Positions 37,112 through 41,324 of a stretch of 64,000 bases of DNA are shown piece after piece. A program made the translations under genes and the position numbers. Under the pieces are notes generated by a model that was given only the letters and a program-made list of their open reading frames with translations, was not told where the DNA came from and did not search any database. The DNA is from SAR92 clade bacterium (GTDB lineage: Bacteria; Pseudomonadota; Gammaproteobacteria; Pseudomonadales; Porticoccaceae). Numbering within the stretch: position 1 is the first letter of the stretch; each line of letters opens with the position of its first letter. The stretch is taken from NCBI GenBank assembly GCA_014381985.1, contig JACNKP010000033.1, positions 1 through 64,000 on the forward strand. The letters run 5' to 3'.

Positions 37112-38113
37112 TTAGCCTAACAACAGCGCGCTGCGATCAAAAAGCCAATAAGCGCTGCAGGCTCCAATGGCATAGACCGCCACATCTATTATTGCCTGTT
37201 CTTTTTGTTTAATGCCAGGAATCTGCCTTGCAAGTAACACTATCAAAATAAAACCGACAATAAATAGGATCTGACCTATTTCAACACCTATATTAAAGAA
37301 CAACAGGGCCTCAAGCTTCATCGACTGCGGTAATCCTAACTCCTGAAGTACCACCGCAAACCCAAAACCATGTAACAGACCAAAACCTGAAGATACACTC
37401 ACAGGATAACGCCAAGTGAAACTATTTTGTTCGCGCCCATTATGATGACGGATAATTTCAACAGCCAATAATAGAATGCTTAACGCGATAAGTATTTCGA
37501 CCAACTCGGTGCGCACTCTAAAAATATTGAGCGTGGCAAGGCTTAGCGTAACGGAGTGGGCGAGTGTAAATCCGGTCACCGTCCAAAGTAACCGCTTAAG
37601 GCCTCCAGCGATGATAATTAAGCAAAGTACAAAAAGCAGGTGGTCATAGCCCTCAAGGATATGCTCTGTACCCGCAAGCAGATACTGATGCGCGACCTCA
37701 GCGGCTGAGGCATCCAGCGGCAACGCTACAATGGTGACTTCTGGTCCCGAAAAAACCTGTGCCACTTCACCTGACAGTGATTTATAGACCACCAAAGAAG
37801 TGAGGCCCGGATTGCTATCAAGGTAATTTAGATGAATCGTAAAGGCTGGATTAGCCTGATCGCAAACATAGCGTCGACGACCCAGCAAGCCGGCCGGTTG
37901 ATTTCCTGCGGACCCACCCTTTATGCGGCAACTTTCATGATCCAACTTAATACCAGGCTCTTGCCCAAAAGACATGACTGGCGGTATTTTCCACTTAAGT
38001 AAGTATTCACTTTCTGACTGCTGATTAACCTCAACATAAACGGGTCTAGCTTCATCTGCAATCACATTACCGACGCAAATCAGAGTTAACAGAAAGAAAA
38101 GAACTCTCATCAC
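37112..38113 (-). CDS. HupE/UreJ_2-family membrane protein
   Basis: 333 residues. A signal peptide (about residues 1-19) and a soluble periplasmic region come first; then six or so transmembrane helices from residue 140 on with the family motifs GTEHILEGYDHLLFVL, TGFTLAHSVTLSLA, GLLHGFGFAVVL and FFNIGVEIGQI. The conserved His and Asp residues could bind a metal; related HupE proteins are proposed nickel or cobalt permeases. No hydrogenase or urease gene is in the window. The ATG overlaps the stop of the PpiC gene (ATGA), so the two are translated together. Confidence 0.88.
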   Translation of the reverse strand: MMRVLFFLLTLICVGNVIADEARPVYVEVNQQSESEYLLKWKIPPVMSFGQEPGIKLDHESCRIKGGSAGNQPAGLLGRRRYVCDQANPAFTIHLNYLDSNPGLTSLVVYKSLSGEVAQVFSGPEVTIVALPLDASAAEVAHQYLLAGTEHILEGYDHLLFVLCLIIIAGGLKRLLWTVTGFTLAHSVTLSLATLNIFRVRTELVEILIALSILLLAVEIIRHHNGREQNSFTWRYPVSVSSGFGLLHGFGFAVVLQELGLPQSMKLEALLFFNIGVEIGQILFIVGFILIVLLARQIPGIKQKEQAIIDVAVYAIGACSAYWLFDRSALLLG

Positions 38114-39018
38114 TTGGGCTCAGTCTTATCGACAACCTGATATTTAGATATCAGCATCTCAATAGCCAACTGCTTTATCTCTCTCTGTTGTTGGCGCTGC
38201 GCGTCAGCTAGCACTGCTGCACTGACATCTTGGAACTCAGGAATATACATAGGGGTCTTTTTAGTTACCAAAACTAAATGCCAACCGTAGTTAGACTTAA
38301 GAGGGCCCTGCCACTTTAAAGGTCCTGGCGAATTTGAAAGCACTAATGAGAATATTTCTTGCTTAAAGTTTAAACCGAAGTGACTAGCAATCTCCTCATC
38401 ATCACGATTGACGTAGTTGCGATTATAAAGAAACCGCTCTCCGTAAAGACCTGAGTTCTCAAACGGCACTTGACCTGCATTTAGACCTTTCAGCAGCTTT
38501 AATGCTCGGGCTTCGCCTTTCTCCCAGCTTAAATCCTTGCCTGAAGCAACAAACACATGGGTAAAAGTTGCCGTGGCAACCCTTCTATAATCCTCTCGGT
38601 TAGTCTCGTAGTATGCACGCAGATCAACTTCAGTGAGTGGTGCTTTTTCGTCATAAAACCCCTGCGCTAAATAATCCATTTTCTGCATTAATCTTCGACG
38701 GATGATCTGATCATCTCGCTCTAAATTGAGGGCCAAAGCCTCTCTATACAGAACTTCACTTTGCACATAGCTTTCTATTAGACGCTGGCGTTCGGCAAGA
38801 GTGAGACCTTGGATGGTCTTTAGGGCATCCTCTGGTTTAAATGATTTAGCCTCACGCTGCATAAATTGGGCGAGCAATTGATCATCAATAAAAATACTAT
38901 ATTGATCGTCGCTGTAATCTTCAGCATTTATCAGCCGCTCGCCGCCAAGCAATACTAAACCAATAATCAGAAATTGAAATAGTGGCTCTTTGAAGACCTG
39001 CCTGGGAAAAAAAATCAT
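38110..39018 (-). CDS. Membrane-anchored PpiC-type peptidyl-prolyl isomerase
   Basis: 302 residues. One N-terminal hydrophobic helix (about residues 12-27) anchors it. A SurA-like chaperone region (LAERQRLIESYVQSEVLYREAL, RRLMQKMDYLAQGF) precedes the parvulin domain, about residues 145-280, ending GPLKSNYGWHLVLVTKKTPMYIPEF. It should help folding of an exported protein. Location between the DUF3604 and HupE-like genes, with a 4-base overlap to the latter, suggests a client from the same cluster. Confidence 0.85.
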   Translation of the reverse strand: MIFFPRQVFKEPLFQFLIIGLVLLGGERLINAEDYSDDQYSIFIDDQLLAQFMQREAKSFKPEDALKTIQGLTLAERQRLIESYVQSEVLYREALALNLERDDQIIRRRLMQKMDYLAQGFYDEKAPLTEVDLRAYYETNREDYRRVATATFTHVFVASGKDLSWEKGEARALKLLKGLNAGQVPFENSGLYGERFLYNRNYVNRDDEEIASHFGLNFKQEIFSLVLSNSPGPLKWQGPLKSNYGWHLVLVTKKTPMYIPEFQDVSAAVLADAQRQQQREIKQLAIEMLISKYQVVDKTEPK

Positions 39019-39049
39019 ATAAGACTAACCCCAGATGCTACACCTTTTG

Positions 39050-40930
39050 TCATTGTGATTGGTACCAAATGGGTGAGGTATAAGCGCGTTCTTGAAGCGT
39101 TTTAGGCCCTCTTGGAGGCTTATCTAACTCCAACGCTAAGCTATCCAACAACCCATTACGAGGCGTCGGAATTTGAAGTACGCGAGTGTAATAAAAAGCC
39201 GAATGTCCAGAGTTAAAATCAGGATCAACCCACAGCACTGCCAGTTCAGCTTGGCCAATGGTGTTGGTATAACGACCAGACCTTAAATCAACCGTATTGC
39301 CAACATCTGGCAACTCTCCTTCGGCACTCAATTCTCGATTATCGGACCAAGCGACGTTATACACTTTCTCTTGTTGTTGACCGCTATTATCAACCCAGCC
39401 CTTGACGACCTGTACCCGATCTAAGTTGGCATCAACAGGACCTTTGACCGCTCTGATGAGAAAACTAGGCGCTTTATTATCCTCGCCAGTAGCTATCAGA
39501 TCACCGCCCATCGGAACGCCGTACTGGTTACCAATGGCACCGAAATCCTCAGCTATCGCGGCATTTTCTGGGAAATCCCATCCAGCGAACATCTGTACGC
39601 GCATACGAGGGCCAGATGTTGCATAAACCTCTTTACGTTTAAAAGCCGCATAGAGGGCTTCGCGTGTATTTTCTGTGGCCCACACTGCTGCCACACCCGA
39701 AGCTGACATATCCCAACCATTGCTACTTACTGGGCTTATACCTCCCCGCTTTTTTGTTTCTGGAGTGGAGTCCTTGGCCATTTTTCCCCAAAAATTACCC
39801 TCTTCTGACGAAGAAAGACCTGAGTGAGCATCAGTTGACCCTATCAATCCAAATTTATAGGGATTGACGCCAATTTTCTGACCAACAGCTAAGCCCTTTT
39901 TAAGCGCTGGTCGAATAAAATCAGCTTCACTTGGAGCGTACCCTGCCTGGCCTTGTTGAATGTAGTGCTCATAGTTTTCAAAATTAGCAAACGGATCATC
40001 CGGAGAAAAATCACTGTACGTCTCGCTATCGCCCTTAATTTGCGTGACCTCAACGATAGGCTCCCACTTAATTCTGCGCCGAGCATAGTCTGCATCAATG
40101 GGTTGGCCTCGCAAGGTTGTGTCGTCAAACATGTAACCTTTAGAAATATTGGAGTTATGAGGAATTGCAAGAAACCTAGTGCCTGTGCGTTGCTGTGTGT
40201 CATCTAACCACTGCCAAAGGTCCTCTGGATACTGACTTTGATTGGAGCCATAGGGTAAAAATTGCTTACCTTTATCAGCGCCATCCGGCGTAATCACAAT
40301 CCGGTGTAAATTAGCCCCCAGAGGAATTGAACTCCACTCCCAACCCAATAAACTCGTGAACGTACCAGGATCATTATGGCGTTCTGCTGCATCGACAATA
40401 TCATGCCAAGCAAGGGTAGACGTTTTAGTGGTATCGCCAAAAATAGCGACATCTGAAATGTTATTATTAGGGTCTTTAACGGGGTCACCATGGCCATCAC
40501 TTGAGGCGTTCTTAGGTAAAAATCGACCAAAAAATTGCAGCCCAGTGTCATCGTCGATAGCTTGATTCATCAGTCTAAAGGCATACCAACGCTTCAAGCT
40601 AGCCCACCATCCAAGATCTTCGCCGACGAATTTATCATTGCGAACGGCTCGCATCACACCCAGCATCTCCGCATGATCTGAGACCACCAAGAAATCTAAC
40701 GGAGTATTAATTTGAACTCGCGTGCGGTTATAAGGATGAATGACAGGTTGGCCCTTAGCCCAACGATAGGCGGTATCGGGATCGGCACTATGGTTGTTAT
40801 TTAAAAATGCGTCAAAAGAATAGGAGCTATGCAGGTGAGTATCGCCAAAATAAACCTGTTTTTCTGACTCCGCTGCCACCACCATGCTAATAGCCAAGCC
40901 ACAGATAAGCGCTGTTGTTTTTATCATCAT
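39050..40930 (-). CDS. Secreted DUF3604 protein (PHP-like metal hydrolase fold)
   Basis: 626 residues with a signal peptide (about residues 1-20). The start of the mature protein carries YFGDTHLHSSYSFDAF, then DFLVVSDHAEMLGV, LLGWEWSSIP, FLAIPHNSNISKG and GSTDAHSGLSSSEEGNFWG. These His and Asp motifs are those of PHP-type phosphoesterases, and DUF3604 is built on them. The enzyme is probably a periplasmic metal-dependent hydrolase with unknown substrate. It is followed by PpiC and HupE-like genes on the same strand; that trio recurs in marine gammaproteobacteria as far as I recall. Confidence 0.88.
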   Translation of the reverse strand: MMIKTTALICGLAISMVVAAESEKQVYFGDTHLHSSYSFDAFLNNNHSADPDTAYRWAKGQPVIHPYNRTRVQINTPLDFLVVSDHAEMLGVMRAVRNDKFVGEDLGWWASLKRWYAFRLMNQAIDDDTGLQFFGRFLPKNASSDGHGDPVKDPNNNISDVAIFGDTTKTSTLAWHDIVDAAERHNDPGTFTSLLGWEWSSIPLGANLHRIVITPDGADKGKQFLPYGSNQSQYPEDLWQWLDDTQQRTGTRFLAIPHNSNISKGYMFDDTTLRGQPIDADYARRRIKWEPIVEVTQIKGDSETYSDFSPDDPFANFENYEHYIQQGQAGYAPSEADFIRPALKKGLAVGQKIGVNPYKFGLIGSTDAHSGLSSSEEGNFWGKMAKDSTPETKKRGGISPVSSNGWDMSASGVAAVWATENTREALYAAFKRKEVYATSGPRMRVQMFAGWDFPENAAIAEDFGAIGNQYGVPMGGDLIATGEDNKAPSFLIRAVKGPVDANLDRVQVVKGWVDNSGQQQEKVYNVAWSDNRELSAEGELPDVGNTVDLRSGRYTNTIGQAELAVLWVDPDFNSGHSAFYYTRVLQIPTPRNGLLDSLALELDKPPRGPKTLQERAYTSPIWYQSQ

Positions 40931-40955
40931 TGTTTTATTCCCCTTTGATAATATT

Positions 40956-41324
40956 CTAAAGAGTGCGTCGTGCTCTCTCTAGTAACACTAAACCCACCAA
41001 TTCAATCACGATCGAGCGAATAGCATCCTGTGTTAGTCCATCTAATACGACATGAACCATACGTCCAAACAAAATAGCGCATAGAAAAACCACAGGGACT
41101 GCCAACCACTTAGCGTTTCCCGGCCGAGATCCATATAGTGTAAAGGCAGCTAACGACAAAAAGGCACCACCAAGATCGCCGCGCAGTGTCCCCATACCAT
41201 GGCTCTGAATCGCTCTAACTGAAAAATAGGGCTCCATTATCGCTGGGGAAAAAACGAACGCCAACCCACCCAGTAACATCAATAAACCCGCTAAAGCGGT
41301 TAAACCCTGCAATCCCTTTTTCAT
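40956..41324 (-). CDS. Small membrane protein, DUF4345-like
   Basis: About 122 residues from the inner ATG at 41324 (MKKGLQGLTALAG); an upstream start at 41357 would add 11 residues that are not hydrophobic. Four transmembrane helices are visible. The pattern LRGDLGGAFLSLAAFTLYGSR, then AILFGRMVHVVLDG resembles DUF4345. Function unknown. It lies 25 bp upstream of the DUF3604 gene and may be the first gene of that operon. Confidence 0.7.
   Translation of the reverse strand: MKKGLQGLTALAGLLMLLGGLAFVFSPAIMEPYFSVRAIQSHGMGTLRGDLGGAFLSLAAFTLYGSRPGNAKWLAVPVVFLCAILFGRMVHVVLDGLTQDAIRSIVIELVGLVLLERARRTL

Follow-up and report, generated by a model that had tools for sequence, protein, structure and literature searches.

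PrsA is a parvulin. In Bacillus subtilis, MeeF and MeeY, two proteins of the TerC family, load Sec-exported enzymes with Mn and are co-purified with SecDF and PrsA (PMC10550928), an arrangement of membrane metal protein and foldase that resembles the locus described here. This locus lies in a 64,000-nucleotide stretch, henceforth the window, of a SAR92 clade bacterium (GenBank assembly GCA_014381985.1, contig JACNKP010000033.1, positions 1 to 64,000), and comprises genes for a DUF3604 protein, a PpiC-type peptidyl-prolyl isomerase (PPI) and a HupE/UreJ_2-type membrane protein (HUP). We refer to adjacent PPI and HUP genes as the pair, and to the pair plus DUF3604 as the trio, and report here their gene order, co-occurrence, predicted folds, conserved ligands and exchange of clients.

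The likeness to MeeF/MeeY and PrsA is one of parts, a membrane metal protein and a foldase for Sec-exported metal enzymes (PMC10550928). The difference is that HUP has no Pfam TerC match (PF03741, sought at E 0.1, when only PF13795 and PF04955 were found), which leaves the functional likeness unaffected, and that PPI and HUP make up a single cassette whose client family can be recognised, known here from genes and models. With HUP, the anglerases Ang-1 and Ang-2 share a signal peptide, an Ig-like periplasmic domain and a HupE/UreJ_2 membrane domain; the mature His1 is 100% conserved in Ang-1, whereas the window HUP has Asp20, and the neighbours named for Ang-1 are DUF4198, indigoidine synthase-like proteins and PfkB, with no PpiC, isomerase or DUF3604 in the main text of that report (PMC12537917). 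Some nickel ureohydrolases, as in the metformin hydrolase operon, are arginase-family metal hydrolases with a hupE homologue in their operon, accompanied by the nickel chaperone genes hypA/hypB and, in the part of the report available, by no named foldase (PMC11399263); the arginase-family proteins described below differ in having export-type N-termini and in accompanying PPI and HUP. Finally, the PHP phosphoesterases BVU_3505, TM0559 and RNase AM share the catalytic fold and the His/Asp/Glu ligand set of DUF3604, which is itself exported, larger and equipped with its own C-terminal Ig-like domain.

HupE/UreJ_2, PpiC, DUF3604 and anglerase-type domains are known families; a search of the open-access literature returned no description of the trio, or of the pair as a helper system that changes clients. 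We propose that PPI and HUP may be a maturation pair, dedicated to exported metal hydrolases and above all to DUF3604, a proposal whose chances we consider evenly balanced. Its broader form, in which the pair would be a portable, client-swapping periplasmic metalation machine on which the large and expanding DUF3604 family and some secreted arginases depend, is put forward tentatively, at somewhat less than even chances.

DUF3604, PPI and HUP form a conserved module

Co-occurrence was assessed in a phylum sample of 397 genomes, drawn evenly with a completeness floor of 90%, using thresholds that were set after the score gap was seen (HUP ≥228 bits, PPI >110 bits, DUF3604 E ≤1e-20). Strong HUP and strong PPI occur in the identical 34 genomes, as 38 pairs that are all adjacent with PPI upstream. 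DUF3604 is found in 33 genomes, and 32 of these coincide with pair genomes, giving 32 genomes with both, one with DUF3604 only, two with the pair only and 362 with neither (Fisher p 1.2e-43, uncorrected for kinship). The 32 genomes span 14 family codes, DUF3604 lies within 6 kb of 33 of the 38 pairs, and in the sole DUF3604-only genome (G246) the match is weaker and in pieces. The original prediction had named co-occurrence no better than chance as the outcome that would speak against a joint system; with 32 genomes carrying both against 3 discordant ones, co-occurrence is strong, and we regard it as confirmed that the three genes form a conserved module, far above chance.

The association extends beyond the phylum sample. 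GTDB genomes yielded 584 HUP relatives, of which the best 80 by likeness to the window HUP, a non-random set, were inspected by six-frame scanning of their neighbourhoods: PPI lies within 3 kb in 80/80 and DUF3604 within 5 kb in 60/80, two of these 60 neighbours being weak pieces (30 bits in L133, 47 bits in L170). Where at least 5 kb is available on both sides, DUF3604 is nearby in 38 of 52 of these loci. The set includes names of Alpha-, Gamma- and Deltaproteobacteria as well as Bacteroidetes, Prosthecobacter and Acidobacteria, and among the records under the last three names several are metagenome-assembled. Fourteen genomes were searched whose pair has no DUF3604 nearby, those of the 14 such loci among the 52, L162 excepted, and that of L133 with its 30-bit piece; 11 of them have a strong DUF3604 elsewhere, G119 has a weak match and G122 and G123 have none. 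Gene order varies while membership is constant, with DUF3604-HUP-PPI in L134, L144 and L213 and PPI-HUP-DUF3604 in L165, L175 and L181. A third constant partner, sought by clustering the 702 neighbour ORFs of the best 80 loci, was not found, the largest cluster occurring in 10/80 loci; other neighbour clusters were rejected as partners, being, by eye, mainly catabolic-looking or antisense ORFs of high-GC loci.

The trio is also carried by plasmids. According to the PLSDB gene tables, a conjugative Sinorhizobium meliloti plasmid has the order DUF3604-DUF3604-PpiC-HupE, and trios occur on plasmids of Rhizobium leguminosarum, Neorhizobium (with one small ORF between), a paddy-soil Rhodobacter and Pseudoalteromonas. 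The mention in the original prediction of similar trios in marine genomes was therefore right as to the trios and too narrow as to the habitat, rhizobial and paddy-soil plasmids and records under the names Bacteroidetes, Prosthecobacter and Acidobacteria having them too. That the trio travels on a conjugative plasmid would suit a hitch-hiking cassette, spread by plasmids and free of functional dependence. We give this explanation very little credence, as the genome-level concordance persists where the genes are unlinked, and as gene order differs between loci with membership kept. Just upstream of the trio on the Pseudoalteromonas donghaensis plasmid lies another HupE/UreJ gene, a divergent one (L225:2134-2829).

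Within the window's own family (112 genomes), DUF3604 is present in 69 genomes, HupE_UreJ_2 in 78 and a PPI relative in 70; an adjacent pair is found in 60, all 60 of which also carry DUF3604, and 43 genomes have neither pair nor DUF3604. Among 121 HUP loci, counted without the second pieces of split HUP matches, 72 have PPI within 3 kb, on the same strand in every case, and among the matches listed DUF3604 lies within 6 kb of 52 of these 72 PPI-linked loci versus 0 of the 49 PPI-less ones. The association is therefore a property of the PPI-linked HUP subfamily, and not of HupE_UreJ_2 at large. A second HupE_UreJ_2 subfamily is common, with longer ORFs, matches often in two pieces and no adjoining strong PPI; a plasmid example (L228:5974-7077) follows genes for a sigma factor, an anti-sigma factor, DUF4331 and an Ig-like protein. 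In one genus of the window's family (L107, L108, L109, L120), the pair and the DUF3604 genes belong to one syntenic block; among the further genes that all four loci share are an FMN-dependent dehydrogenase and a thioesterase-like gene.

Copy numbers are uneven in several genomes. DUF3604 matches above 400 bits stand to HUP genes as 25:2 in G125, 10:1 in G121, 11:2 in G124 and 9:2 in G112, and one or two HUP genes against 9 to 25 DUF3604 genes fit a shared, maturase-like service better than a part of each pathway.

Arginase-family neighbours of the pair

Related pairs also stand beside proteins of an unrelated fold. Three arginase-family proteins (PF00491; 258, 254 and 177 bits) flank the G479 pair, Vibrio ulleungensis (L188) has a single one (194 bits) just upstream of its pair, and on a Novosphingobium plasmid (L226) an arginase-family frame is about 4.6 kb away; L188 is the only one of the best 80 HUP loci with such a neighbour. 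A search of 216 genomes of G479's family located PPI of the pair type at 17 loci, spread over 15 genomes, with DUF3604 near 13 (L209-L219, G321, G391) and an arginase near three (L203, L220, L221). No DUF3604 was found at E 0.01 in the four genomes with arginase-linked pairs other than that of L226 (G479, G682, G727, G123); hence an unrelated metal hydrolase can take the place of the client.

Most arginase-family neighbours have hydrophobic or lipobox N-termini of export type, the L226 frame being uninformative in this respect. In six of nine uncut frames, with every one of the five loci represented, the His and Asp of three metal motifs, presumably the metal-binding positions, are intact; the L188 protein reads GGTHI in place of GGDHS. 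The remaining three are ligand-altered second copies, one each in L203, L220 and L221, with Ser for the second Asp of SFDVD and Arg or Asn ending DAHxD. Arginase folds use Mn or, in some ureohydrolases, Ni (PMC11399263). Related pairs thus stand beside either of two unrelated folds, which share export and a metal centre, and a role of the pair on metal enzymes is in keeping with the exchange of DUF3604 for exported arginase-family proteins.

On a tree of 118 concatenated PPI and HUP rows, a quick one with weak deep forks and on which near-copies alone make labels cluster, the arginase label requires 2 changes versus a shuffled mean of 5.0 (as low in 0/500), and the five arginase-linked pairs share one seven-row subtree with L166 and L114; the DUF3604 label requires 19 changes versus a shuffled mean of 29.1.

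A third type of client (L185:6223-8595, L201:27-1913, L110:5418-7463) was considered and is not claimed, the comparison with the DUF3604 profile being weak (probability 37%). These proteins, encoded beside pairs, have no Pfam match and show the PHP-like motifs GHEH and SSDWH, with GDFHNHT in L185 and L110. In L201, a PCu(A)C-type copper-chaperone gene lies between the candidate and PPI, and in L185 a relative of that gene lies just upstream.

Predicted folds, presumed ligands and a possible route for the metal

The predicted model of DUF3604 (pLDDT 87.1) aligns best with 3e38 (Z 16.3, rmsd 3.9 over 233 residues) and 2anu (Z 16.1, rmsd 3.7 over 211), with Endonuclease Q (Z 12.2) and RNase AM (Z 8.7) among further PHP matches; the first ten rows of the ranking are PHP-domain proteins, some of them presumed by us to be so, and the next row drops to Z 6.4. 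Foldseek alone also has 3e38 as top match (E 1.2e-5), a PDB sequence search with DUF3604 gave nothing useful, and the part from about residue 440 onwards aligns with Ig-like domains. Ten residues (H32, H34, D40, D85, H86, E198, H209, H258, D367 and H369) are invariant in 45/45 rows, window included, and are presumably the PHP metal ligands. The protein falls short of the cut-off for the CehA/McbA metallohydrolases (NF038032), with 12.6 bits against 80. A Tat-like motif is present in 4/45 rows and export is most likely to proceed mostly through Sec, as far as this simple pattern shows. On its model, DUF3604 fits a secreted metal-dependent hydrolase of PHP fold. The family name has also been given, by annotation, to Chlamydia trachomatis CT_425 (PMC11925237).

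PPI, with a rotamase domain over the cut-off, is by prediction a PpiC/parvulin-type foldase, and its best PDB sequence match is Cell-binding factor 2 (3rfw, E 8.4e-7).

HUP has a signal peptide (by eye), a periplasmic beta-sandwich and a membrane domain (model pLDDT 90.9). In structural alignment (VIA-align), the six best matches of the periplasmic domain are all metal-binding proteins or apo forms: ZrgA, zinc-bound (8f1b, Z 10.6) and apo (8ezw, Z 10.5), PA4063 (Z 10.0, 9.8 and 9.6, two of these structures containing zinc) and, with Cu bound, the domain of Ang-1 (9gce, Z 8.1, rmsd 3.1 over 104 residues), residues 20-133 superposing on the three proteins with rmsd 2.7-3.1 over 104-108 residues. 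As modelled, the domain resembles Zn- and Cu-binding domains, with Z values that are moderate overall; unrelated receptor ectodomains align less well (Z 6.5-7.5). With HUP, Foldseek alone returned unrelated receptors, the metal-binding domains surfacing in the later structural alignment, and a PDB sequence search gave nothing useful.

Conservation in HUP was read in two alignments of 48 and 21 rows, both including the window. H151, D157, H158, H186, E206 and H248 are invariant in both (48/48 and 21/21), which for the His and Asp residues among them bears out what the original prediction had seen in this polytopic protein; E219, E278 and Q281 are kept in 48/48 rows, and the second alignment has E219 in 19/21 and E278 in 20/21. 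The first mature residue, with the cleavage site placed by alignment and not by a signal-peptide program, is His in 36/48 and Asp in 12/48 rows of the first alignment and His in 9/21 and Asp in 12/21 of the second. Like the HupE nickel permeases, HUP matches PF04955 (28.5 bits, cut-off 23) and has, as H151-x5-D157-H158, the H-x5-D-H that we take to be their motif. These permeases have a second motif with two His-Gly pairs; the HUP alignments have only H248-G249 and lack the second His-Gly of this motif, and HUP differs further in its extra periplasmic domain and its neighbours.

These residues bear on whether the pair might instead be a membrane complex for scaffolding or quality control, holding back or sensing the client, with metal binding of structural significance only. 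We judge this improbable: an Asp in place of the metal-binding His at the first residue in 12/48 rows and the lesser alignment of the periplasmic domain with receptor ectodomains would agree with it, whereas the invariance of the membrane His, Asp and Glu positions in 48/48 rows and the metal-binding nature of all six best structural matches argue against it.

According to the proposed maturation route, DUF3604 would leave the cell unfolded via Sec, as its signal peptide suggests, and the membrane-anchored PPI would hold and isomerise the emerging chain. HUP would bind a transition metal by means of its periplasmic sandwich and a membrane His/Asp/Glu site and would pass it to the folding active site of the client, or position it there. 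One or two pairs would serve the many DUF3604 copies of a genome, and certain lineages would use a related pair for exported arginase-fold proteins instead. The physical handover, the identity of the metal and the direction of its flow are what we infer here. The original prediction had HupE bringing metal to the periplasm, PpiC folding the hydrolase and DUF3604 using the metal, an idea that finds support in part: the folds of hydrolase, foldase and metal-membrane protein fit it, as does the arginase swap, and the small membrane protein that it had included drops out (see below).

The main doubt concerns direction. The literature presents HupE-type relatives as nickel permeases, and the HupE-linked anglerases have been suggested to catch metal so that it can be taken up (PMC12537917), the wrong way for a maturase. 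HUP could accordingly be an importer of metal or of the hydrolase product into the cytoplasm, with PPI folding envelope proteins only, and several neighbours of DUF3604 or the pair are indeed catabolic genes and TonB receptors. We consider the importer unlikely, though less so than the other rivals: related pairs serve two unrelated client folds whose products are presumably different, one or two HUP genes face up to 25 clients, and a product importer leaves the strict tie of PPI to HUP (80/80 loci) unexplained.

Further points weigh against the maturation pair. The transmembrane part of HUP found no confident fold match in structure searches, and the window HUP has its Asp20 in the column of the metal-binding first residue (His1) of the anglerases. 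Nine of the 69 DUF3604 genomes of the window's family have no detected pair, five of them being less than 80% complete and four 88-92%, and one of the latter group (G005) has PPI beside DUF3604 and no adjacent HUP. In G479's family, L202 (G419) has neither DUF3604 nor arginase near its pair, in a genome without DUF3604. The copy asymmetry is not general, G195, G250, G265 and G451 having two pairs each, and the absences in the 397-genome sample are slightly soft, at most 5 HUP, 6 PPI and 3 DUF3604 candidates having been scored per genome.

If true, the maturation pair would be a second, independent route besides TerC/PrsA for the metal loading of exported enzymes, and one that could be transferred to a laboratory host together with its client. 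It offers a possible reason why DUF3604 enzymes, with up to 25 copies per genome, might be inactive if expressed alone, suggests for a foldase and a HupE-type protein, so far annotated by family only, a role that can be tested, and leads one to expect that some secreted arginases, too, depend on such help.

Gene layout of the window locus

The four genes of the locus (Table 1) are transcribed from 41324 to 37112 on the minus strand in the order small membrane protein, DUF3604, PPI, HUP. The shared strand, the positions and the spacing (gaps of 25 bp between the small protein and DUF3604 and of 31 bp between DUF3604 and PPI, and a 4 bp overlap of PPI and HUP) are all as the original prediction gave them. 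Promoter and terminator scans gave signals at or below chance level. The flanking genes, by Pfam scan an inositol monophosphatase family member, an amino acid permease and an aldehyde dehydrogenase, appear unrelated.

Table 1. Features of the locus, in window coordinates
Feature	Positions	Strand	Basis or remark
Small DUF4345-like membrane protein	40956..41324	-	Upstream neighbour; longest ORF starts 41357
DUF3604, exported PHP-fold hydrolase (predicted) with C-terminal Ig-like domain, 626 aa	39050..40930	-	PF12228, 763.5 bits (cut-off 20.4)
DUF3604 residues 24-441, PHP catalytic domain	39608..40861	-	Fold match and conserved presumed ligands
PPI, PpiC-type peptidyl-prolyl isomerase, 302 aa, membrane-anchored (by eye)	38110..39018	-	PF13145 Rotamase_2, 38.5 bits (cut-off 27)
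HUP, HupE/UreJ_2-type polytopic membrane protein, 333 aa	37112..38113	-	PF13795, 154.4 bits (cut-off 24.5)
HUP residues 20-133, periplasmic domain like metal-binding ZrgA, PA4063 and Ang-1	37715..38056	-	Structural alignment
HUP residues 151-158, H-x5-D-H motif, first membrane helices	37640..37663	-	Conservation

The small membrane protein matches DUF4345 at 19.2 bits, under the cut-off of 26.5. It was rejected as a fourth member of the module, contrary to its original placing in the cluster: relatives are confined, among all loci collected, to the window locus, L036 and L042, the latter two from the same genus as the window, and L039, L040 and L041, of that genus too, extend upstream of the trio DUF3604 gene yet have no such relative.

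The window genome has a single HupE_UreJ_2 gene, the HUP of the window, and four DUF3604 genes above 430 bits plus one of 64 bits. One of the other DUF3604 copies (L009:6425-9783) adjoins a Rieske ring-hydroxylating oxygenase, and another (L010:5239-17335) lies near genes for a GMC oxidoreductase, an aldehyde dehydrogenase and a TonB receptor, neighbours that hint at catabolic substrates.

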